Of a DNA stretch of 64,000 bases, positions 25,160 to 38,400 are shown one piece after another. How positions within the stretch are numbered: position 1 is the first letter of the stretch; every line of letters begins with the position of its first letter. The notes under the pieces were generated by a model. The model saw only the letters and a list, made by a program, of their open reading frames with translations, had not been told where the DNA came from and did no database searches. The stretch is from Ceratodon purpureus (lineage: Eukaryota; Streptophyta; Bryopsida; Pseudoditrichales; Ditrichaceae): NCBI GenBank assembly GCA_014871385.1, contig CM026431.1:4628604-4692603 (forward strand), given 5' to 3'. A program made the translations under genes and the position numbers.

Positions 25160-25330
25160 CCACAGTGGTTAAACCGGTAGTCCCCCCTCACCCCCGAGGT
25201 TAGGCCAGGGAGAATTGACCCTCACACTGGTACCTTACCGGATGAAAGTCGTGGATGATCCCTTCGGTATCTCATCCATCATGATCCAAGTAGGTAACCC
25301 ATGGTTCGAACCCATGGTTACCTTGACATG
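25160..25330 (+). repeat. Repeat related to an inverted copy at 38.1-38.2 kb
   Basis: The stretch around 25185-25260 (CCCCGAGGTTAGGCCAGGG, then TTGACCCTCACACTGGTACC) resembles the reverse complement of about 38120-38230 (CCTCGGGCCTGGGGAGG, then TTGACCCCCACACTGGTACC). Next to it, 25292-25323 is an imperfect palindrome with AGGTAACC / GGTTACCT arms around GGTTCGAACC. The pair could be the degenerate ends of one large element spanning 25.1-38.3 kb or two copies of a dispersed repeat. There is no tRNA-like spacing between the possible A-box near 25168 and the GGTTCGA string. Confidence 0.5.
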
Positions 25331-25734
25331 TGGATGAATGGGGCCTTTTCGGCCTTATTGTGCACTCATCCTTGTGAACCCACATCCATTTAAAGGAATA
25401 ATTGCAACTTGAAAGTGCCTTCCAATGAAATGAGAGGACTTAAACATTTTTGTGCACATAAGTAGGAGTGGATATCACTTGTGGTTTCATAGGAGATTTG
25501 TAAGTCAAGCACCTTTGAAGTTTTGAATGGGGTATGTTTCAAACCTTATACTTATTAGTTTTATTTGTTTTTTTTTTTTAAAATTGCATGCATTAAAAAT
25601 ATATGCACATTTGTATGGTTTATATTTTAAGAGCATGTTTTTGTAACAATTTAATAATTCTTTATTTCCTAGTTTTACAGGTGTTTTTGAGTAATTACAC
25701 AAAGCAGAGATATAATTTTTTTGTAGAAATGCCA

Positions 25735-26360
25735 TCATGATGGGTATGGCTTAAAGAGTTGTGATATATTCTAAAGTTTCTCTATGATGGGTATTTCCTC
25801 CATGAGACTGTGATTTATCTCATATGTAGTCCATGATGGGTATTTCTTAGAGACCAAGATGCATTTCAAAATCTCTATGATGGGTATTTCCTAGAGATCG
25901 TGATACGTTTTAAAATTGCTCTATGATGGGTAATACCAAGATGAGTAAACCCTAAAGATGGCGATGGATTTAAAATTATGTTGATGATGGGTATTGTCTA
26001 TGGACTTAGGAGGGATGTCCAAGTGTGCTTATTTTGATGATTGTTTCAAAGTTTTGTGATAAAATTCCATTGTGGCAATGATGGGTATTGCCCCAATGTT
26101 CTAGTGTGCCATTAAGGCAACCAGAGATAAATCTTTTTCCTAAAAAACTTGTGTATGATGGGTATTGTTTGGAGGGTTGTGATATAATACAAAGTAGATT
26201 TATGATGGGTATTTTCCCTACGTTGTGATATAATTCAGAAAGTCTTCATGATGGGTATTGTGAAGAGAGTTATGAGAGTTGTTTATGTATGCTTGCTTTG
26301 AAGATAATTTCAAGTTCTCGTGATAAATCTTACTTGGGCTTCATGATGGGTATTGCTCAA
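25735..26360 (+). repeat. Left array of ATGATGGGTATT motif
   Basis: About eleven copies of ATGATGGGTATT or a one- or two-base variant occur, near 25737, 25783, 25831, 25876, 25922, 25984, 26079, 26155, 26201, 26247 and 26341. The spacing is irregular, mostly 45-95 bases. The intervening sequence is also partly repeated (GTGATA, AGAG). Fixed motif with variable spacing suggests a protein-binding array rather than a simple satellite. Confidence 0.9.
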
Positions 26361-26526
26361 TTATGAAGGTGCATCCTTTTGTGTAGGCATGATTGTTCTT
26401 GTGTGCATACATTTTATTTTTTTTCATTTTGCAAATTAATACTTTATTAACTTAGACTTATTTGATTATACTTTTGATATTAATTATTTGATGTGCTATG
26501 TATTATTTCCATGTATAGAATATAAA

Positions 26527-29039
26527 ATGCCTCGGCGAAAAGAAGATCCCATTGTACCTCAAAGTCCTCCCTTGGGACCAATTTCCTTTGAAGACCTTGT
26601 ATGGAAACAAGGAGCACGAAAAGGCTATGGAAACAAGACTACCATCATGCGTGCATACATTCCCTTCGACAGAGTGGGAGATTTTTTAAGGGGACAAACA
26701 TGTGAAGGTGGAATAGAAGTGGGATGGAACGTTGCCGAGAGGATTCAGGGAACACATGTGTTAAGGCCTCAGGTAGACTCTTACATTGAGCATGTTTATT
26801 ATGAGTGTCCTTTTGGTCCTAAAGATCTTAGAGGGGACCCTCCTCATCCCCATTCCAAAAAACGGGGATGTTTAGCTAGATTCTCTATCAAGCAACTCTT
26901 GCTTAGGCCAGATGTGGCTGAGGTTGCTTATTACCAGGTTGACCACAATAGGGAAGACGGGACACCTGCACATGGATTAGAAGACAAAGATTCTATAGGG
27001 AGAAAGTCAGCTTATCAACCAAGAATGTCCCTTGAGTTGAAAAAATGGATCAAAACACGTTTAAGTGAAGGATTCACTGCTAAACAAGTTTATGAGGAGC
27101 ATAGACGGAATTGGATTGAGAGGAGGAAGATGAAATGTCCTGAGATCCGTGATGACTTTGTAGAGTTACGGGACATTGCTTATTATGAGAGCAGACTCAA
27201 GATGGGAGTATGGCGTCGACATCCTAATGATTTCGAGAGCGTGAAGATGTGGATCAAGGAACATCCTGAGAATGTCTTTATGTGGCATGAGAAGGATGAT
27301 GTGACCGATTTGCCCTTCATACTTGGAATTCAAACTCCTTGGCAAAAGGAGATGATGCTAAAATATGGACATAACGGGGCCATTGCAATGGATGCAACTT
27401 TTGGTACAAATGTCCCCAAGTACCCTCTTTATTCTTTGCTTGTTTTTGATCACTGGAGAAATGGCATTCATGTTGCTTGGGTGTTAAGTAGTCGATCATC
27501 AGAGGAGGATTTAGTAATGTGGTTAGAACCTCTTCGAAGACACTTGGAAGGTACAAGACTTGATTTTTTACCATCATGCTTTATTGTTGATGATGCTGTA
27601 GAACAGAGGAATGCTTTGAAACGGGCTTGGCCTGAATCAGAGGTTCCTATTTATTTATGTGCTTTCCATGTTCTAAAGAACTGGAAGAACCACATTTGGA
27701 CCAAAGTACCCAACCTAGGTTCTTTAAGAGAGCTTGTTTATCGGCAATTGCATTCTCTTTTGTACATGCCCATTGAGTACCAAGAAACAGAGGAGGATTT
27801 CTTGAAGCGTGCTCGTGTTAGGAGCAAAAACATGTTCAACTTTCTGTATATCAAAAGCATGGAAGAGTACATTGAGGTTTATTATGATCATCAAGGTGAG
27901 TTTCTCTTTGTACCATTTCGAAAAGTACTTGATATTTCCATTTCCAATTCTTATAATTGTTTTTGGTTTATAGAGTGAAAGCATTATTCATGGAAGTCTG
28001 TCATTTTATGTACAAACCTCAATACCAAAATAATATTATGTATTTTATTCTTTTCATAGAGATGTATCTTATTGGTCATCGAAGGAACCCCCACTCCAAT
28101 CAAGACACACAAGCTAGCATTGAGTCATACCATGCTGCTCTTAAGAGGTGGATGAAGATTGACAATCACCAGCTTCGAGGGAGGAGGATGGATTCTCTAG
28201 TATGACGGTTGACTAATCCAATAGAGACACATTACATGTACAACGATGGGAGGAAGCTAAACGGCTTTGTATTGAATAAGCACGTTGAGAAGATTGTGGC
28301 AAGCGGAATTGCCAAGGCTAAGGGTATACCTATCGAACATGTTCGAAGACATCATGCAATTGAAGGACTCTGGCAGGTGCATTCTCAAAGTGCCCTTGGG
28401 CGATGGTATGACATTATCGATCCTTATATCAAGTATGCCTCATGTTCTTGTGAATGGGCCATACGTGGGAACATGTGCAAACATCAACTTGTTATTATCA
28501 AGTGTTCCACCGATATCTCTTGGAATGACATGTTAGAGTTCCTTGGTACTTACTATGGCTCGGTCCGTGGAGGGCTTCAGGCTATGTTTGAGCATAGTGT
28601 TCCAATAGACCCATTTGAAGACATCGAAGGAGATGAAGATGAAGAGGATATTGAGGATGTTACTAACATACATGACAACTTCGCTCCACAAGACTTTGAT
28701 GGAGCAAGTACGTCTAGAGATTTTGATGGTGTTAGGCAAACTCAACCTTCCATAGAAGGATCTTTACAAGTAATTGATAAACTTGTAGAAGAGTCTAGAG
28801 AATTAGCACTTGAAGGTGGTTTAGAATTGGTCCAACACCTCCAAGCCATGATGACGAAAGTCGTCACAAGCGTCAGACGAATTCGGGCACAACAAAGTGT
28901 TGAGAGTTTGCATCCTCAAACCGTATTCGAGGTAGTCGATGATGGCTTGGGCTCTTCAATTGTTCGAAGAAAGGATTACCGAGAAATAGCTATGTCAAGA
29001 ATGTCCACTCAGAAGAAAAGGAAAAGTACAGCGTTGTAG
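26527..29039 (+). pseudogene. MULE transposase (one in-frame stop)
   Basis: Two exons, 26527-27895 and 28060-29039, join in phase 1 (CATCAAG|GTGAGT ... TTTTCATAG|AG). The frame is 782 residues, starting MPRRKEDPIVPQ just after a likely leader-intron acceptor (ATGTATAG). The central block has the MULE DDE-type pattern: AMDATFGTNVPKYPL, YSLLVFDHW, FIVDDAVEQRNALKRAW and LCAFHVLKNW. The C-terminal part has a SWIM zinc finger (CSCEWAIRGNMCKH, CxC-x8-CxH) followed by an acidic stretch. One codon at 28203-28205 is TGA, between DSLV and RLTN, where family members usually have Trp; otherwise the frame is open. FAR1/FHY3-like domesticated genes share these domains, but the flanking arrays point to a transposon. 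With the stop it is probably not making full-length protein. Confidence 0.88.
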
Positions 29040-29364
29040 TAATTTATTGAAGACTTATTTTGGTTGTAAAAGTTTTATTTTTTAAAATATTAAAGGTTAC
29101 TGTGAAGAAGTACTATTGCACATTAATAAATGTTTTTTTAATGATTGCATAAAATTCAAAAAGTTTAGGTGGTGTGTCTTGTATAATTTTAAAGGAAACC
29201 ATCAAAATAATAATTTTAATGATTTTTGAACTCTTATTATAACTTCGTGTCTATACTCATCACAATTTTTATTTTAAAAAGAAATTCCATCATTCTCTTG
29301 TAATTGGTTGGAATGATGAGCTTTGTAAAATTCACCTTCACCCTAAAAAAATTTTACAAGAGCC

Positions 29365-29940
29365 TCAAGAGAATACCCATCACGAATTAGTTTTAGGCGC
29401 AATAATTATATCTCTGGTTTTAAACTTCAAGGTCCTTGACTCCGCAATATCCATCTCAATGAGTCTTTGAATATATCATGAGCTTAGAGCAATACCCATG
29501 TCGTAGTTATTTTCAAGTATCACATGACCCAAGTGCGATACCCATCACGAATTTGTTTTCAACTATCACATAACTTGAGTGAAATACCCATCACGAATCA
29601 ATTTTTGGCTCAATAATTATATCTCTGGTTTTTAGAGTCAAGGTGCTTGACTCCGCAATACCCATCTCAAGGAGTCTTTGAATATATCATGAGCTTAGAG
29701 CAATACCCATCTCGAAGTTATTTTCAAGTATCACATGACCCAAGTGCAATACCCATCACGAAGCAAATTTCAACTATCACATGAGTTAAGTATAATACCC
29801 ATCATGAAATAGTTTTGAGCTCAATAATTATATCTCTGATTTTTAAGCCCTAAGGCTCATAATCTCTCCAATACCCATTTCGAAAAACTTTGATATATCA
29901 CAAAAGCTTAGGGGCAAAGGAAATACCCATCACGAAACAA
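29365..29940 (-). repeat. Right array of AATACCCATCACGAA motif (inverted)
   Basis: About eleven copies of AATACCCATC[AT]CGAA-like sequence, the reverse complement of the left-array motif, lie near 29371, 29445, 29491, 29537, 29583, 29656, 29701, 29748, 29794, 29869 and 29921. A longer unit of about 210 bases (containing CAATAATTATATCTCTGGTTT and CTTGACTCCGCAATA) occurs at about 29400 and again at 29610. The count and orientation mirror the left array around the transposase gene. Nothing else is seen in 29040-29364 or 29941-30246. Confidence 0.9.
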
Positions 29941-31226
29941 TTTTGTGGGAAATAATTAAATCTCTAAAGTGCAAAACCTTGGCAACCTTGAACCTGGAAA
30001 TACATATATTTAGATGGTTTATAATGAACTCACAAATTCGTTTGCAAATTTCTTTTCTATAAGATGATGGAAAAGATTTATGAAATAAAGATGTTTCAAG
30101 TAATTCACAAAATTGACATTCCAAGTAAAACAATGATATGCAAAATTGGATACTTCATATTCCACAATATTGTTTCAACCATCACAATGAGGTTGAAAAC
30201 AAGTCAATCTAGAAGAAAGGCTACAAAACCAAAAGCACTAATGTAATTAGAAATCGTAAACATCCTCTCCGTTTCCTTGGTCTTCTCTTACTTCACTTCC
30301 TTCTCCTTGAATTCCACCATTTCCTCCAACTCCACCATCTCTTGCATTATCTTCTCTTTCTTCATCTTCTTCTCCATTAGCTCCACCATCCTCTTCATGT
30401 TCTTCTTCATCATCATGATTGTCTCCATCGTCATCATCATCGGTTTGTGAAACTATCTCTTTATAAGTATCTTCTTCAACCTCATCTTCTCCACTTCCCT
30501 CTTCTCCACTATTGAAGATATCATCACCTAAGCCATGTTTTGCACGGTAGGAATCACATGCAACTTCCACACGCTCCATTCTTGACACATTCTCCATCTC
30601 ATAAAACTTGGTCTTCAAAAATAAGTATCTTGCAATCCACTTATCCTCCCCCGTGATGAGACTATACAGAAAAAAATTAAAGTAATACACAAGTATATGA
30701 AAATGTAAAACTCTTAACATAAACATAAACAATGACAATCTTTAGAAGAAGAGAAGAAATTTAAACTCACATGTTTTTCATACTCTTTGCACGGTGCCAC
30801 TTCACAATTGAAGCCACCAAACCCTTTCTCTCCTTCTCATTCCTCTCCCACTTGGAATAATAAAAGAGTTCTTGAAAATCCTTGGTCACTTTCTTGTTGT
30901 TTTGAGGGTTTGATCTCACCAAATCTGCAAGGGCCTCCAAGTTGTGCAATTTCTCAATCTTGGAGAAATTGAGATTACCTTTGCCCAAAGACTCAACTCC
31001 AAGAAACTCTTCCAACTTCCCACCATTCTTGATGACACTAAGAAGGAGTGGGCATTGCCCTGGAGGTGGCTCCTTCCTAGCTCTCTACTCCAATTTCTTC
31101 CAAGACATTTGAGCCCTAATGCTCCAAGCTTCCTTCTTCTTCTCAAACTCGTTCTTCTCTCTCAAGTAAGATGTGGTCATAATCTTCAAATTCGGATTCT
31201 TGGTAGTCTTCTTCTTCTTCTTCTTG

Positions 31227-34200
31227 GTCTTGTCCAGAGTTGGGCGGGTATACGGGAGAGAACCCGTGTATCATCTCGGATAATGGTATCAATAGTAGGT
31301 ACCCTACCTGCCATGGTATAAGGGTTTTGAAATACCCGTGTCCAACCCTACCTAGGGGGTCTTAGGGTTTAGGGATACCATGCAAAATACCCGACTGCGC
31401 GGGTGCCGTTTCAAGCTGTAGGTGCGAGAGACCAGTATTGAAGAGTTTCGGTGAATTAAACCGGGGTAATCATTGACAGTATTGAAGGTTTAGTGTCGTG
31501 GGTTGTGGAAGTGTTGTGCACATTGAATTTGTTAGGGTGTGGTTGAGGGATGGCATTGTAGTTGGGATTTGTTTGAGGGACTGTATGTACAAAATTCACG
31601 AACGTTGATTGAAGGCCGCCGCTTTGTGCTTCACCGAACAGTACACCATTAATGGAAACACTCATACCTTAGGTATTACCCCGGTTCCAAATCGCTTCAG
31701 CCAGGCTTAATCTCGGCATGTTGCATGATTCTGTTTAGGGTTTGTAAGATTGCATGCTACTGTTGCTGTGTGTCTCTTTTGTTGCAGTTTTTTTATTGCT
31801 TGCAGTGTCGTCGTTGCAAGTGCGCTTCAGATTGGGCTTAGGTGGTTGCCATGGATACATGTATGGATGTCAATGAGTTTGATGACGTCTGTGAAGTAGA
31901 TCACGAAGGAACTGCATCAGGTTTTGGGGGAGCTGACTTGCTGCCAGATATTTCAGCATCGGAGTTGCTTAGAGAGGAGGACTCTGCGGCACAACGAGTT
32001 GCTGCGTGCTTGGCGGAAGAGGCGGCAGCGGAGTGGCAATTGCATTTCAGCATTTTCCAGTCAAATCAGAAATCGTGGATTCCTTACCACCGCAATTCTC
32101 CAGTTTGGGCGTTTTTCCAATTACTTGATGGAAGCGGAGGAGGCCGTGTCGATGCAAGCATTGTCCAGACAATGAGGTGTGTAATCTGTCACCCAACATC
32201 TGTGAGCAGCCCAAGTTCGAGTAGAACAACAAGAAGTAGAAAAGGTGTTGTAAACTACAACCACAATCACGGGTCAACAAGTTTGAAGAAACACGTTGAC
32301 AGTGCACACTCCGAGCTTTACGAGCGATATGTGAAGGAGATGGCAGAAAAGCAAGCCCTAGAAACCCCAACTAGCGCAAGAACGAAGAACAAGAAAAGGA
32401 AGTCCATCCAAGCTTCTCAGATTGTAGATTTCTTCGGGAGCAAGGAGGCCTACAGGAAGTTAGATCTGCCGCAGGTGAATTCCTGGTTCAATCTGATTTT
32501 ATTCACTGAGTTCGCTGATCAGTCAGATTAGTTGTGCATGCTACAGTGTAGATGGCTGCTCTCAGCCATTTTCATTCAAAACAGACGTCTCTTGGTCCAG
32601 TGTGTTCCGTCTTGATGCATACATCGTGTCGATTGTTGTTGGCGGCGTACATCATGCAGATTTTAATGTTTTTCGGAACAGAGCTCGTTAGATACCTGCT
32701 TTAGATCATTTTAATGATTTTTTTTAATCCTCTTCCGCTCCTTTTAATTTCCAAGAGTTTCTGAGACTCGTATTCACAAGTAAGATCCGGTCTGTTATGT
32801 TACTCCTTCGAGGGTTTCCTTGTGGCCCTATTATATGTTTCTGTCACGGTCTGTATGCAGCAGGATGATATCAAGTAAGTTCGGTTTTAAGGCTGCGGCA
32901 TGCGGAACATCTGAATTACTCTCGCGGGTTATTCTGGGTCAATGATCGTTCCGTATCTGGGCATTTTAAGATTTTCGGGTTGTCTCAAATTATAGCATAT
33001 ATCAATGAGACATCTGCAGTCTTTTGAAAGGTCATCGTAGCCACTTCGACCTCAGTTACAGCATGTGAGCATCGATCGTCTTCATTTCGGCCGAGAATTC
33101 TGTCGCTCTAAGTATCTTGGAATTTTTGCTTGTTGCATGTGCTGCTCATTTTAAAGGACACTATGCAAGTGACAGGTAATACAGAACTGGTTTGTCTTCG
33201 TGTACTTTTGTCTCTTGGTAACCGTAACCTCTAGCTCAGGAGTCGATGTCTGTTTCCTCTTCGTGGACCATGAGAAACTCGGTATGACGTGGGTGTTTGA
33301 TGAATTCCGATGGATTTAGAGACTCCTGGAATAATCTGATCACTAGGATTCAAGTGCAGTCAATTCTACTCTGGAGTCGTGGTACAGAGAATGATTTTGA
33401 GTTATAGTATGTAGACGTTCTTTATTTGTGGTCATTGTAATCTGAAGGAAACATATTCGTTGGATCTGCCGCAGGTGAATTTCCTTCAAAACCTGGTGCT
33501 GCTCATTGCCAAGGGATGCATTCCACTGTCCCTGGTAGAAAGTCAATGGGTCCGCCGTCTTGTCCTCATGTGCGATTCAAGGATAAACTTCCCATCCAGG
33601 AAACAACTTGTCAGGGAGCATATTCCGATGATGTTCACAAAAACTATGGAGCAGTATGTGTTGCCATTGGTGGGAAAGTCCGCCACTGTCAGTGTCACCT
33701 TTGATTTATGGATGAGCCGTGGTACTCAAGACACCTTCTGCATGGTCGTTAACTTCCTAGACACAGATTGGGTGCCACGCCATGTCACTGTGGGAGTATT
33801 TCGAGCACAAAGCACAACTGGAGCTGCACTTGCGACAATCGTCGAGCCTCTGCTCAAAGAATTCAACTTGCTAGACAAGGTGCGCATTCACTTCCTCATC
33901 AGTGGTTGTATGCATCGGATTTTTTGTACACCAAGTTGTGTTTCTTTTTGATTTCAAGTTCTGCATGCTACAGTGCCGCATTGTGCATGCTACAGTGTAG
34001 CACATTTTTGGAAATAGGCAGTACAACCACTTGTTAGATGTAGTATATTTTGAACAGGCAGGGTTTGCGGATGATTCATATCACCGCACCTTATTCACAA
34101 GCCCGTTGCTGCATTGTCTCTGGCTCTCAGCTCATACTCAGTAAACCTTGTATATGTTGTTCTGCATGCAGTAATGGTTGTGCTCGGCAGAATCGAAGTC

Positions 34201-36646
34201 TGGATTCAGGCAATTTTCGATAGAATTGTGCAGTGTTCAGTATCGTAGAGTCTGTTAGATTATTCCGATGACCATTGGGTAGTGATTGTGCACCTGGTTT
34301 ACTCGTTTACTCCCAGACTGAGGAGCCATTGCCGTGGCTGCGTAAGAGAACAGAAGAGGGACACCGTTTCTTGAGTCTGTCTGTATGTTTCGGTCTACAG
34401 TCTGTCTGTTTCTTTTGCATTTTAATTTCCAAAAACTGAAATCCTACTGTGGATGCTTTGCCAGGTTATTGCATATGTGAAAGATGAAGGAACAAATCTG
34501 ATCACTTTAGCCAACGCTTTGTCCTTTGTGGTGAGCTGCGATGTGCTTGGCTTAAAGGCACCATACAGTGGAACGTGTTTTGGGCATGTCATGAGTAAAG
34601 TGTGTCAGTATGGCACAAATTCAGATACGATTTGTGCCTCAATGAAGCATGTATCCTTGAAGAACGCTCAAAGTACCTTGCAGAAAACAATAACTTGGAC
34701 CAAGAAGAGCGGCAAGGGTCGGCAGGAGTGGGAGAAAGCATGCATTGAAGCTGGTTTACCAAGCCGTAGGTTGAAGACTCCTGTAAAGACTCGATTTGCT
34801 TCTAAAGTGACTCTGTTTCAGGAGACCTTGGAGTATGCATCGGCTATCAACATTTGTTATCAGCGGCAGACACTCCAACTACAAGCTCGTGTTCCATCTG
34901 GTTTGACGTGGGCAATAGCTAGAGCGGTTTGTGATATACTCAACCCTGTGGTTGAGGCTTGCATTCTGAACCAAACGCGTGGTTTTTGGTTGCTATCTGA
35001 TGCTCTTGTCTCAGCCATGACAATCTCTGTGAAGCTACGAATCGAGAGTAACCGGCGGGAGCTTGCAGTGCCGTCGCTGGAAGTCGGCAGTTTTGACAGT
35101 GAGCTGGAGATTATGCATGGACGAATAGCCAAAGCGGGTTGTGGAGTCTTAGAGCCATTCCTGGATTTTGCTTTCAAGTTCAGCAAGGAAAAGGCTCACA
35201 ACATGGTTGCCATCATGCTAGACCCTCGACACAAGAGCTTGCAGTCCATATCTAAATTTGTGGGTCCTCAGACTGCGAAGCTTGTAGTCATGGAGTACGA
35301 TCGCTTGGTTCTCCTTCCCCTTCTCATGCAGGTGCACATGCACTTGAATCCAAGAACTCAGACGACGTTGGTTCAGGCTGATATGTGTGATTCCGTTGAA
35401 GTGGACCAGTTCGCTCTCTTCGGTGCAGGAGCTTCGGAGGATGAAGCTGCAGAGGGGCTGTTACAGAAGGAACTCTCACTATTTCGTCGTCTGGTGATAA
35501 AGTCATGTGATCTGGAGGAAGGGCCTTTGGAGTGGTGGAGGGTGAATGAAGCATTATTCCCATGTGTGGGCTTCCTTGCTCGACAGTATCTTGGAATTCC
35601 TGGTTCTCAAATTGAAACTGAGAGGATCTTCTCAGTTGCTGGCATTCTCACCAACTTGCGACGGAGTAGGTTAGGCCTAGACAACTTAAATAATCTCATC
35701 ATGATCTATAAAAATTGGCCAAGTGATTCGCGAACTGATTGCAAGCTATATGAGCACCTTGCAGATTTCTACTCTGCTGAAGCTGCAATTCTTGAAGAAA
35801 ACGAGGATGAATTGGCTCAAGAAGGCTTGTTTGAAGAAGTCAGTGATGAGTGATTTTCTGCGTCACTGTAGAATTGCGCACTGTTCATCACAGCACCGCA
35901 GGACAGGATGAAGAAGCTCTCTAGACTTCAACCCATAGCTTCGGTATGTGGAATTTTGTGTTGATGCAGACTGAGTTTGTAAGCTCTCTGTTTACTGCTC
36001 TGTGTTTTGAAACAAGTGAGCTGCTTTATAATTTTTGCATATCACAGTTCGGGAGCTCAGTTTCTGCAGATATCTTGATACTTGTTGAACAGGACCTGTG
36101 TCTCATAAGTTCCGGTGGGCAGAGGAATTCCTTTTGTGAGACCTTATTCCTGCCTTCCAGCAGTGGGATTAAATGTGTGTGCAGGTGGAGATGGTTTTTG
36201 TTTCTGGAGTACAACAGTATGTGGATTCTATGTTATGATGGCACATTGAGTCTGTTTTTTTTGCACAATTTCAGAGAGTGAGAGCTGTCTGTGTTAATGA
36301 GTTGATTGTTTTATTTGAGATGCACCGTGTTGTGAAGTTTACATGAATAGGCTTAGATGTGGCTGCAGGAAATCACTTTAGAGAAGCTCATATTGATGCA
36401 ACTTGGATTCATGGTAATACCCGACCAGTATATAGGGTTGCACTGGTATTAAAATTCTACTACCATGGTATTGCTACCCGGATATAAAAAAAAAAATAGA
36501 ACTGTAATTGATACAAGGCGGATATATAAATTTCAAAAAAACCAATTTATATGTATACCCTTATTTCCATGATTTTATATTCATCCATTATACCCACACC
36601 CGTGAGCATGAGAAAAAACCAATACCCGCCCAACTCTGGTCTTGTC
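31227..36646 (+). mobile_element. Complete hAT DNA transposon with target-site duplications
   Basis: The element runs from 31235 to 36638 (5404 bp). Its ends are a perfect 17-bp terminal inverted repeat, CAGAGTTGGGCGGGTAT, and it is bordered by identical 8-bp target duplications GTCTTGTC at 31227-31234 and 36639-36646. Subterminal regions contain several ACCCG/CGGGT strings in both orientations. It carries one transposase gene with all exons open. The 8-bp duplication, the CAGAG terminus and the hATC domain all agree with the hAT superfamily. Perfect ends and an open gene suggest a fairly recent insertion. Confidence 0.96.
31851..35853 (+). CDS. hAT transposase
   Basis: Three exons, 31851-32474, 33475-33879 and 34465-35853, join in phase 0 at both junctions and encode 805 residues without a stop. 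The N-terminal third holds a BED-type zinc finger (SPVWAFFQLL, CVICHP, then the SLKKHVDSAH end) and a basic linker (RTKNKKRKS). The catalytic core begins with SVTFDLWMSRGTQDTF, containing the first acidic residue, then VIAYVKDEGTNL with the second. The C-terminus is a canonical hATC dimerisation domain (WWRVNEALFPCVGFLARQYL, then IETERIFSVAG). All parts expected of an active enzyme are visible. Intron 1 is exactly 1000 bases and is bordered by a 19-bp direct repeat; intron 2 is 585 bases. The ATG at 31851 is preferred to upstream non-ATG codons. The remaining internal non-coding DNA, 35854-36620, shows nothing else. Confidence 0.95.
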
Positions 36647-36799
36647 ATTCTCATCTTCTTTAGGCTCGGGCTTCAATTTCTCTAACTCCAACTTATGAGC
36701 TTTCTTCATGTGTTCATTGAAGTGATACTTGTGTTTGAAAGGTCCATATGGACACTTCCGATTGTTCACACTTACAAGGCACAAGTAGGGGTCATCTTT

Positions 36800-37215
36800 A
36801 CCCTTACCTTTGGACCAATGCTCTCCTTCAATTGCATCACCCATCTTTTCCACCACTGTAGGTATCTCATCCCCATTCCTATTCTTCTTCACAATGGCTA
36901 TAAAAAATCACAATTAAAAATCATTTAGTTCCAAATAGCATTAGAATTTCTAGACTCAAAATTCCATAATTCTAAATCCAAAAGAATTGCAAACATTTCA
37001 AAAAACACTTAGCTTTACCTTTAGGCAAATGCTCTCCTTGAATTGCATGGTCCAAGTTGTCCACCACTCTAAGTCTCTCACCTCCATTCTTACTCCTCTT
37101 CCTCTTCACCATGGCTACAAAAAATCACAATTGAAATTCAATTAGTTCCAAATAACATTATAACTTCTAAACTCAAAACTCTATAATTCTAAATCCAAAA
37201 GATTTGCAAACATTT
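36800..37215 (-). repeat. Tandem duplication of an exon and its intron
   Basis: About 36800-36995 and 37011-37215 are two diverged copies in direct orientation. Each includes an exon end resembling EGEHWSKGK / QGEHLPKGK, the codons for IVKKNRNG / MVKRKRSKNG, and the upstream intron with TAGTTCCAAATA and TCTAAATCCAAAAG. The duplication places two similar exons in series in the split zinc-finger gene. Confidence 0.85.
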
Positions 37216-38400
37216 AAAAAATAAACTCCAAGATTGAATGTAATTACAAAAGAGCATATAATTGGACATTTAGTACTTTGTAATACAAAACTAGAAGCCT
37301 ACAATCAACATTCAACTAAACCTCATATATGTTACACTTTAAGAAGTTCATACAATGAGAAAAGTAGCTACAATACTAAACCCTAATTCTCCAAAAAAAA
37401 TAGAAACTTAGAAAATGAAAATACAATCCATACACACTTCTTCAACACAATTCATACATACAAGAATTGAATGATTCTAAACCAATGCACAATCAAACAT
37501 CAAGACAAATGTAGAAAATAGCTTGCATCAACATACATTAGAAATCATTTGTTATAAGTTTGAGGCTTGTATTTACCCTAATACCTAATACTAATTCTAA
37601 CTCTTTTCTTTCTTCTTAAACCTACACTTCAAAGTACAAAAAGATAACAAATAATTATCAATAAAATATGAAAGACATGCAACTTAACAACCTAAAATAT
37701 ATCTAACTAGAACTTCTCATTCCAAGGTAAAAGCCACAAAAACAACCAAAACTAGACACCAAACAAGCAATAAGAAGCAATGAAGCAATCATAACAAGGA
37801 ATAATAACAAGCAATGAATAAATTAAAATACAACGACTGTACCTGAGGGCGGTTGCTGCAGGGCGAGACGGACAGGGCTCCTGGGGAAGGCGAGGTGGCG
37901 AGGGCGAGGTGGAGACGGCGATGGCGACAGGCGACAGGCGAGCGAGGGAGAGCGGACTGACAGAGTCGACGGGGGGGAGGGTCGACAGGGTTGCTGCGAG
38001 GCGGGAAACGGAAAGGGGGCGGGGGCAGTGGGAGCGGGGGGAACCGGGAGCGCGGGTGGGGAACGGCAGGGGGAACGGCGAGGGGGAACGGCAGGGGGGG
38101 AACTGGGCAACCTGCGGTTACGTGGATGGGAGGGGGATGACGCCCCACACTCCGTCCCGCGAGGGTACCAGTGTGGGGGTCAATCCTCCCCAGGCCCGAG
38201 GTTACAGGTTACCTCCCCCTTTCTAACTTCGGAGTCAAAATATCTTGAACTACTCCTCTGATTCCTTGAGAGTTCCGAGAGAGGTGGAGAGACCTTACAG
38301 GAATAGGGTTCCAAATGGTGCAGAGTCTGTCCCCGCCTTATACACCCAGACATCCGGTTTAAGCATTTCAATAATCTTTGAATTCACCTAGGTTTTTGTC
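37113..38400 (-). other. Upstream region of the split gene; GC-rich leader and repeat
   Basis: From 37216 to 37840 the sequence is AT-rich and looks intronic. At 37843 it switches abruptly to a very GC-rich, purine-skewed stretch up to about 38150. On the minus strand that stretch is C/T-rich and ends in CCCTCAG|GTACAG, a plausible leader exon and donor. About 38120-38240 resembles, in inverted form, the repeat at 25.17-25.26 kb. Open frames in the GC-rich part are low complexity (Pro/Arg/Ser) and not convincing proteins. Confidence 0.45.

Follow-up and report, generated by a model that had tools for sequence, protein, structure and literature searches.

The target-site duplications of Mutator-like elements (MULEs) measure 8–11 bp, mostly 9 bp, and that of MuDR is 9 bp long. 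VANDALs are also MULEs; their transposase is VANA, and they have no clear terminal inverted repeats (TIRs). Arrays of short motifs that are read by the transposon's own anti-silencing protein have been described from the VANDALs of Arabidopsis: VANC21 binds a 9-base motif and VANC6 binds a region rich in an 8-base motif, the motifs being tandemly repeated in noncoding regions of the elements, and the VANC proteins recognise the motifs YAGTATTAY and AGTTGTMC and remove silencing (PMC5735166, PMC10398659). In Aedes aegypti, a 12-bp repeat occurs nine times in the TIR of Muta1, and 10 of the 12 long-TIR MULE families of this species have short subterminal repeats (PMC5225508). Hence, arrays as such are already known in MULEs. 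Here, we describe a MULE of the moss Ceratodon purpureus, located in a stretch of 64,000 nucleotides of contig CM026431.1 (positions 4,628,604 to 4,692,603, forward strand). This whole stretch is called the window below, and its numbering is used wherever no contig is named; other contigs and the loci read in the genome are numbered C and L. The element contains two arrays of a 12-base motif, ATGATGGGTATT, one on each side of its transposase gene. We found that the left array looks selected, and it may be a platform for a protein that the element itself encodes.

The two motif arrays and the signal of selection

The two arrays were delimited as follows:

25737..26354, + strand, left motif array: 11 copies of ATGATGGGTATT spaced 44–95 bp (motif scan; shared variants depleted)
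29372..29933, − strand, right motif array: 11 degenerate reversed copies, in a 211-bp repeat (2.3 copies) made of 46-bp units (motif scan, repeat analysis)

The left array is composed of nine exact copies and two with one mismatch, and the right array of one exact copy, four with one mismatch, three with two and three with three, these counts excluding three-mismatch matches just outside the arrays (26389, 29252 and 29282). A preliminary description of this DNA, made from the letters of the window, had reported about eleven direct copies left and about eleven reversed copies right of the transposase gene, which our counts confirm. It had also noted variable spacing, from which it took selection to act on the motif and not on a satellite unit: the spacing does vary, but a decayed tandem unit of about 44–47 bp lies beneath it, as well as the 211-bp repeat. 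When up to two mismatches are allowed, the motif is present at 24 places in the 64-kb window (100 shuffles: mean 7.0, maximum 13) and absent from the element parts 26531–29039, 30247–31234 and 36640–38195 and from a nested hAT transposon. The left array is located upstream of the transposase gene; 534 bp separate it from the left end, so that the TIR does not include it. The right array is located between two convergent genes, about 2.85 kb from the right TIR if the hAT is discounted, and the last 1.5 kb at the right end contain no motif at up to two mismatches.

We aligned the left arrays of 30 copies, i.e., the window and L010–L038 (L009 is the window itself and was dropped). Divergence from the commonest base reached 0.020 in motif columns and 0.051 in spacer columns (0.012 and 0.034 at A/T sites), and 1 of 598 circular shifts of the motif mask was as low as the real one. 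Singletons are found at similar rates per site, 0.242 in motifs and 0.280 in spacers. In contrast, variants present in at least three of the 30 copies are rarer in motifs (5 on 132 sites) than in spacers (80 on 490 sites; 0.038 vs. 0.163 per site, Fisher P 0.0046), and 5000 random placements of eleven 12-mers gave a mean of 17.8 shared variants, the fraction reaching five or fewer being 0.0002. This contrast is clear at A/T sites (0 motif vs. 30 spacer variants, P 0.0015) and not significant at G sites (P 0.42), all five shared motif variants being G to A. Since the copies share ancestry, all these P values are to be taken as guides. Singletons are thus evenly distributed, whereas per site the motifs carry about one-fourth as many shared variants as the spacers, so that the left array appears to be under selection. 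Such a pattern would be expected if mutation were even across the array but copies whose motifs are damaged had few descendants.

For the right array, variants found in at least three of 11 sequences number 8 on 132 motif sites and 44 on 430 spacer sites (0.061 and 0.102 per site, Fisher P 0.08), singletons number 20 and 46, and the A/T sites give P 0.71; with 10 sequences, 135 of 538 mask shifts were as low as the real mask. These tests leave out partial or diverged arrays, such as those of L043, L046, and L047. The right array appears to follow a trend in the same direction, which is non-significant, and displays no significant constraint. Selection on the motif, as proposed in the preliminary description, is therefore supported by the shared-variant tests for the left array and not for the right one.

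Extent, copies, and genes of the element

We found that the element is larger than the interval 25735–29940 first assigned to it. Its limits are the following:

25194..25202, left copy of the 9-bp target-site duplication, CCGAGGTTA (same sequence as 38196–38204)
25203..25234, + strand, left TIR, GGCCAGGGAGAATTGACCCTCACACTGGTACC (starts of matches in other copies; 81 left termini genome-wide)
38164..38195, − strand, right TIR (27-bp inverted match, E 1.9e-5; right termini in 20 other pieces)
38196..38204, right copy of the target-site duplication, CCGAGGTTA (same sequence as the left copy)

The element spans 25203–38195, so that both motif arrays are internal; it is indeed a MULE, as first proposed, but the arrays are not its flanks. 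In 27 of the 29 other loci that have the left part, the match begins at 25197–25203, the late starts being those of L011 (25214) and L037 (25225). The right end was located by the inverted match 38164–38190, and the same end recurs in 20 small pieces from other places. The alignment of copies, suggested in the preliminary description as a way to fix the ends and duplications, agrees with these limits; the TIRs are about 32 bp long, 27 bp of them matching at 92.6% identity. The 9-bp duplication is perfect in 14 of the 23 copies with both flanks and has at most one mismatch in 18 of 23 (wrong pairings: 0 of 506). The remaining five show two to six mismatches, L016/L075 and L036 looking shifted by one base. 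L011/L069 was kept out of this table owing to an insertion near the left end of L011; its flanks match at 9 of 9 positions. After subtraction of the hAT and of one hAT duplication, the MULE measures 7581 bp, and the copy at C1:26082059-26089660 measures 7602 bp.

Other delimitations were rejected. Element ends at 25735 and 29940 are ruled out by the copy alignments and the inverted terminal match; a position near 31235, at which copies stop matching, is the insertion site of the hAT; and long continuous TIRs formed by both arrays are ruled out, the arrays being located between short TIRs.

The motif was then searched in the genome (362 Mb, 151 contigs). The exact motif gave 530 matches vs. 13 for the reversed pattern used as a control, and close motif pairs 150 vs. 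0. The left-terminus pattern gave 83 matches (control, 0), two of which are the right ends of known copies, leaving 81 left termini. On C1–C3 and on C4 below 6.6 Mb, where the exact-motif listing is complete, 13 of the 14 left termini have an exact motif 541–1599 bp inside, in the same orientation, the exceptional terminus (C4:1690418) having no exact motif within 2.5 kb. An exact close pair is found at 33 of 54 left termini (C1–C5 and C6 below 101.6 Mb), a stricter criterion which misses array-bearing copies such as L023. Among the matches listed, 79 of 100 exact motifs and 94 of 100 pairs lie at most 8 kb inside a left terminus. The other 21 listed exact motifs comprise four in altered-end copies (L051 and L052), five clustered at C4:1674803-1675241, and 12 single ones, of which the two read (L001 and L008) have no element sequence around them. 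Among 19 diverged or broken transposase loci (L050–L068, some overlapping), 15 carry the motif on the upstream side of the transposase, with at most two mismatches; L057 and L062 stop before the motif region, and L054 and L066, whose similarity starts inside the transposase, have no motif in that orientation. These results support the conclusion that ATGATGGGTATT marks this MULE family genome-wide. The genome-wide motif search recommended at the outset thus assigns the motif to the MULE family, and a genome-wide satellite unrelated to MULEs is ruled out by the match and pair numbers and by the closeness to left termini.

Separately, 39 of the 81 left termini are carried by contig C6 (110.5 Mb, 30% of the genome), as expected for a repeat-rich sex chromosome.

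We also examined derivative copies, scoring the best 40 of 121 candidate left-array copies against a right-array list made of the best 40 of 49. Among these 40 copies, 12 have a transposase match, all of them with a right-array match and 11 of them with gene 2; three lack the transposase but match the right array and gene 2; and in the other 25, none of the three was matched. In the 20 non-autonomous loci followed, the left part ends at 26356–26580, beyond the last motif, in 20 of 20. It then resumes at 29273 in L013–L015, in which the right array is kept, and at 37094–37323 in 14 of the 20 loci, without right array between; L021, L037, and L038 have the left part only. About ten junctions are distinguishable among these 20 loci, some of which may have been split by alignment slack. 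A deletion in L007 (26035–26113) removes one motif. The 9-bp duplication is perfect in six of the 14 short copies (L022, L026, L028, L029, L030, and L035). L013 and L014 have no transposase and keep both arrays and gene 2; over 2708 bases the two agree at 99.93%, yet their target duplications differ, so that transposase-less copies must have moved recently.

The retention of the left array in derivatives and the shared-variant test support a role in cis for this array. On the other hand, the 14 short copies have no right array, which speaks against symmetric binding of the transposase to a pair of arrays. The preliminary description had proposed such a mirror-image terminal pair; it does not agree with the short TIRs, with arrays located 534 bp and about 2.85 kb inside the ends, with the motif-free last 1.5 kb, with the lack of significant constraint on the right array, or with short copies devoid of it, six of them with perfect duplications.

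The genes and the insertion that splits the second of them are as follows:

26527..29039, + strand, MULE transposase gene, ATG at 26527, probable intron at about 27898–28059 by eye (PF10551 E 3.7e-11, PF21056 E 9e-10, open reading frames [ORFs])
30247..30668, − strand, gene 2, 3' exon with a very acidic C-terminus, upper limit approximate, by eye (ORF; exon also open in L089 and L090)
30770..31234, − strand, gene 2 main exon, part downstream of the nested hAT (C11:4659373-4659840)
36639..36895, − strand, gene 2 main exon, part upstream of the nested hAT (C11:4665238-4665498)
36804..37221, − strand, 217-bp tandem duplication holding the gene 2 start twice (repeat analysis; second small ORF copy in other loci)
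31227..31234, left copy of the 8-bp hAT target duplication, GTCTTGTC (same sequence as the right copy)
31235..36638, + strand, hAT element with TIR CAGAGTTGGGCGGGTAT, splitting gene 2 (PF05699 E 1.6e-12)
36639..36646, right copy of the hAT target duplication, GTCTTGTC (same sequence as the left copy)

With 43.8 bits against a cut-off of 27.6, PF10551 establishes the presence of the MULE transposase domain; the SWIM zinc finger PF04434 stays under its cut-off of 19.6 (E 0.029, 14.4 bits). The window copy has an in-frame stop at 28203–28205. Divergence at codon positions 1/2/3 of transposase exon 1 is 0.030/0.022/0.044 in ten sequences and 0.089/0.065/0.090 among the window and three diverged copies. 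A comparison of the transposase exon with solved structures gave no match at E 1. Gene 2 extends from about 37113 (by eye) to 30247 on the − strand, interrupted by the hAT, and is thus convergent with the transposase gene, which is on the + strand. Its main exon is open across 238 codons in the natural copy L090, and its codon-position divergence is 0.026/0.018/0.044 in six sequences, two of them nearly identical. The 217-bp duplication gives a second small start exon upstream of gene 2. The comparison of gene 2 with solved structures returned two histone acetyltransferase chains (E 0.085 and 0.094), which we took as chance matches. The nested insertion belongs to the hAT superfamily, its 8-bp duplication being accompanied by a 475-aa ORF with a hAT dimerisation domain (PF05699).

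Relatives of gene 2 with 39% identity and no stops are present at C4:180783-181442 and C6:97988652-97989311. On C4, the nearest listed exact motif is about 1.5 Mb from the relative, and these relatives may form a sister family that has either a different motif or no motif at all. Two satellites also exist, built partly of the interior of this element or of gene 2 relatives. The matches at C11:14075492-14136784 (L093, of which C11:14131000-14134500 was read) form tandem units of about 1.145 kb, 99.6–99.7% identical in the piece read; the unit consists of part of the right motif array and a broken part of gene 2, i.e., it is a satellite from the interior of this MULE. Those at C2:24117012-24143622 (L094, of which C2:24130000-24133000 was read) form tandem 964-bp units, identical in the piece read, each encoding a distant relative of gene 2 (about 33%). 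This identity reflects either recent homogenisation or an assembly effect.

Candidate readers of the left array

We propose that the element is a two-gene Mutator-like element with a MuDR-like layout, i.e., short TIRs and convergent transposase and second genes. The left array would provide about eleven putative binding sites just upstream of the transposase gene, as suggested by its place, the number of its motifs, their restriction to the family, and the depletion of shared variants. The product of gene 2, a putative DNA-binding helper, would gather on this array and, by analogy with VANC on VANDAL elements, keep the copy active or unsilenced. Copies with damaged motifs would leave few descendants, while the right array would be a secondary copy between the two genes, which gene-bearing copies bring with them. 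VANDALs share with the moss element the layout and a short motif repeated in tandem in noncoding DNA; for this reason, we consider an element-encoded helper most likely and give a probability of roughly 0.42 to the left array being a cis-acting platform read by such a helper, as in the VANDAL/VANC system. A more specific version is rather unlikely: gene 2, which belongs to no known family, would read the selected 12-bp array, its relatives at 37–39% identity would read other motifs, and activation or anti-silencing would have evolved independently of the Arabidopsis VANDALs.

Several results weigh against this proposal. The contrast in the left array loses significance when variants carried by just two copies also count as shared (Fisher P 0.09) and when only the 15 short non-autonomous copies are tested (P 0.32 and 0.105); counting changes by parsimony weakens it, with 66 on the 132 motif sites and 378 on the 490 spacer sites; and the numbers of variable sites by themselves do not differ significantly (P 0.17). 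As for gene 2, its main exon has no Pfam and no NCBIfam match, and its single-sequence fold is poor (mean predicted local distance difference test score, pLDDT, of 43). Its acidic exon has Pfam matches only far below cut-off and displays no clear constraint (codon-position divergence 0.043/0.054/0.057, eight sequences). Moreover, our results fit a helper, the transposase, or a host factor as the motif reader alike.

If the reader were the transposase, the motif would be its own binding site, and many sites would raise its local concentration, the array being needed at the left side only. The short copies retain the left array together with the left end, the right array trends the same way as the left one (Fisher P 0.08), and the Muta1 TIR of Aedes contains nine 12-bp subterminal repeats (PMC5225508). 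However, the array begins 534 bp inside the left end and outside the TIR, the last 1.5 kb at the right end contain no motif, and the right array is missing from the 14 short copies, six of which have perfect 9-bp duplications, and unmatched in 25 of the best 40 of 121 left-array copies (right-array list being the best 40 of 49), which makes direct binding by the transposase somewhat improbable. We judge it unlikely that a host transcription factor reads the left array as part of an enhancer, a promoter, or a leader intron of the transposase gene, in which case transposase expression alone would account for its upkeep. Indeed, the array persists in short copies that have neither transposase nor gene 2, with about ten different junctions recognisable among them, and the listed exact motifs give no sign of wide host use, 79 of 100 being at most 8 kb inside a left terminus, although the 21 listed elsewhere, including L001 and L008 without element sequence, make some host sites possible. 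A host reader would nevertheless suit the position of the array, whose last motif ends about 172 bp before the transposase ATG; since a likely splice acceptor, identified by eye, directly precedes this ATG, the left array may sit in a leader intron. It would also suit the distribution of the shared-variant signal, the strongest contrast coming from the 15 gene-bearing and transposase-deleted copies (0 vs. 33, P 0.007; 0.105 in the 15 short copies).

A last possibility is that no protein reads the arrays, which would be a decaying minisatellite carried passively, the 12-mer seeming conserved because the units share an ancestor. The 44–47-bp unit beneath the arrays, the 211-bp higher repeat, the lack of a significant contrast in the right array (P 0.08; A/T P 0.71; 135 of 538 shifts), and the forms of the left-array test that are not significant all go in this direction. 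Yet new mutations fall evenly in the left array, but variants found in at least three copies avoid the motifs, and the deletions that created the short copies stop short of this array; a passive minisatellite therefore seems distinctly unlikely for it.

Comparison with described MULEs

The preliminary description had suggested that the motif-array form may be a distinct lineage. This form is not unique, as VANDAL21 and Muta1 of Aedes also have motif arrays. No description of this MULE family or of the motif ATGATGGGTATT was found in the open literature searched: the motif itself brought up one paper, which concerns mitochondrial DNA, and of 219 papers on terms for the family in Ceratodon, the eight listed do not contain this name. 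What is new here is the position of the arrays, the asymmetry between the two arrays, and the shared-variant signal. The contrast between singletons and shared variants offers a simple one-genome test for the noncoding parts of transposons that are needed for their spread.

Muta1 and its relatives resemble the moss element in being MULEs with 8–9-bp duplications and, for Muta1, copies of a 12-bp repeat; in contrast, their repeats lie inside long TIRs and are separated by 3–4-bp spacers (PMC5225508), whereas those of the moss element are internal, spaced 44–95 bp, and near one end only. The moss element thus lacks the Muta1-type arrangement, in which both TIRs contain short tandem repeats. MuDR of maize has, like the moss element, two convergent genes, there a transposase and a helper, and maize Mutator elements have long TIRs that contain promoters and a motif of about 32 bp bound by MURA (PMC3310237, PMC9168764, PMC6446971), whereas the TIRs of the moss element measure about 32 bp and do not contain the motif array. 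Hvu_Abermu of barley is a MULE with an extra ORF in the opposite orientation that has no identity to mudrB; it differs in that no such array is described for it, the words "tandem" and "subterminal" being absent from the main text (PMC9168764).

If the logic of an array read by the transposon's own anti-silencing protein, as described for the VANDALs, also arose in moss, this would suggest that self-recognition is a recurring escape from silencing for DNA transposons. The moss element differs from VANDAL21 and VANDAL6 by its clear TIRs, by the two genes found, and by its motif, which is ATGATGGGTATT instead of YAGTATTAY and AGTTGTMC. On the other hand, VANDAL21 and VANDAL6 are multi-gene elements in which a family-specific short motif is tandemly repeated in noncoding parts, including upstream of VANA21, which is the arrangement that the moss element resembles. 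Gene 2, which has no Pfam match above cut-off, could by this analogy hold the place that VANC occupies in the Arabidopsis system.

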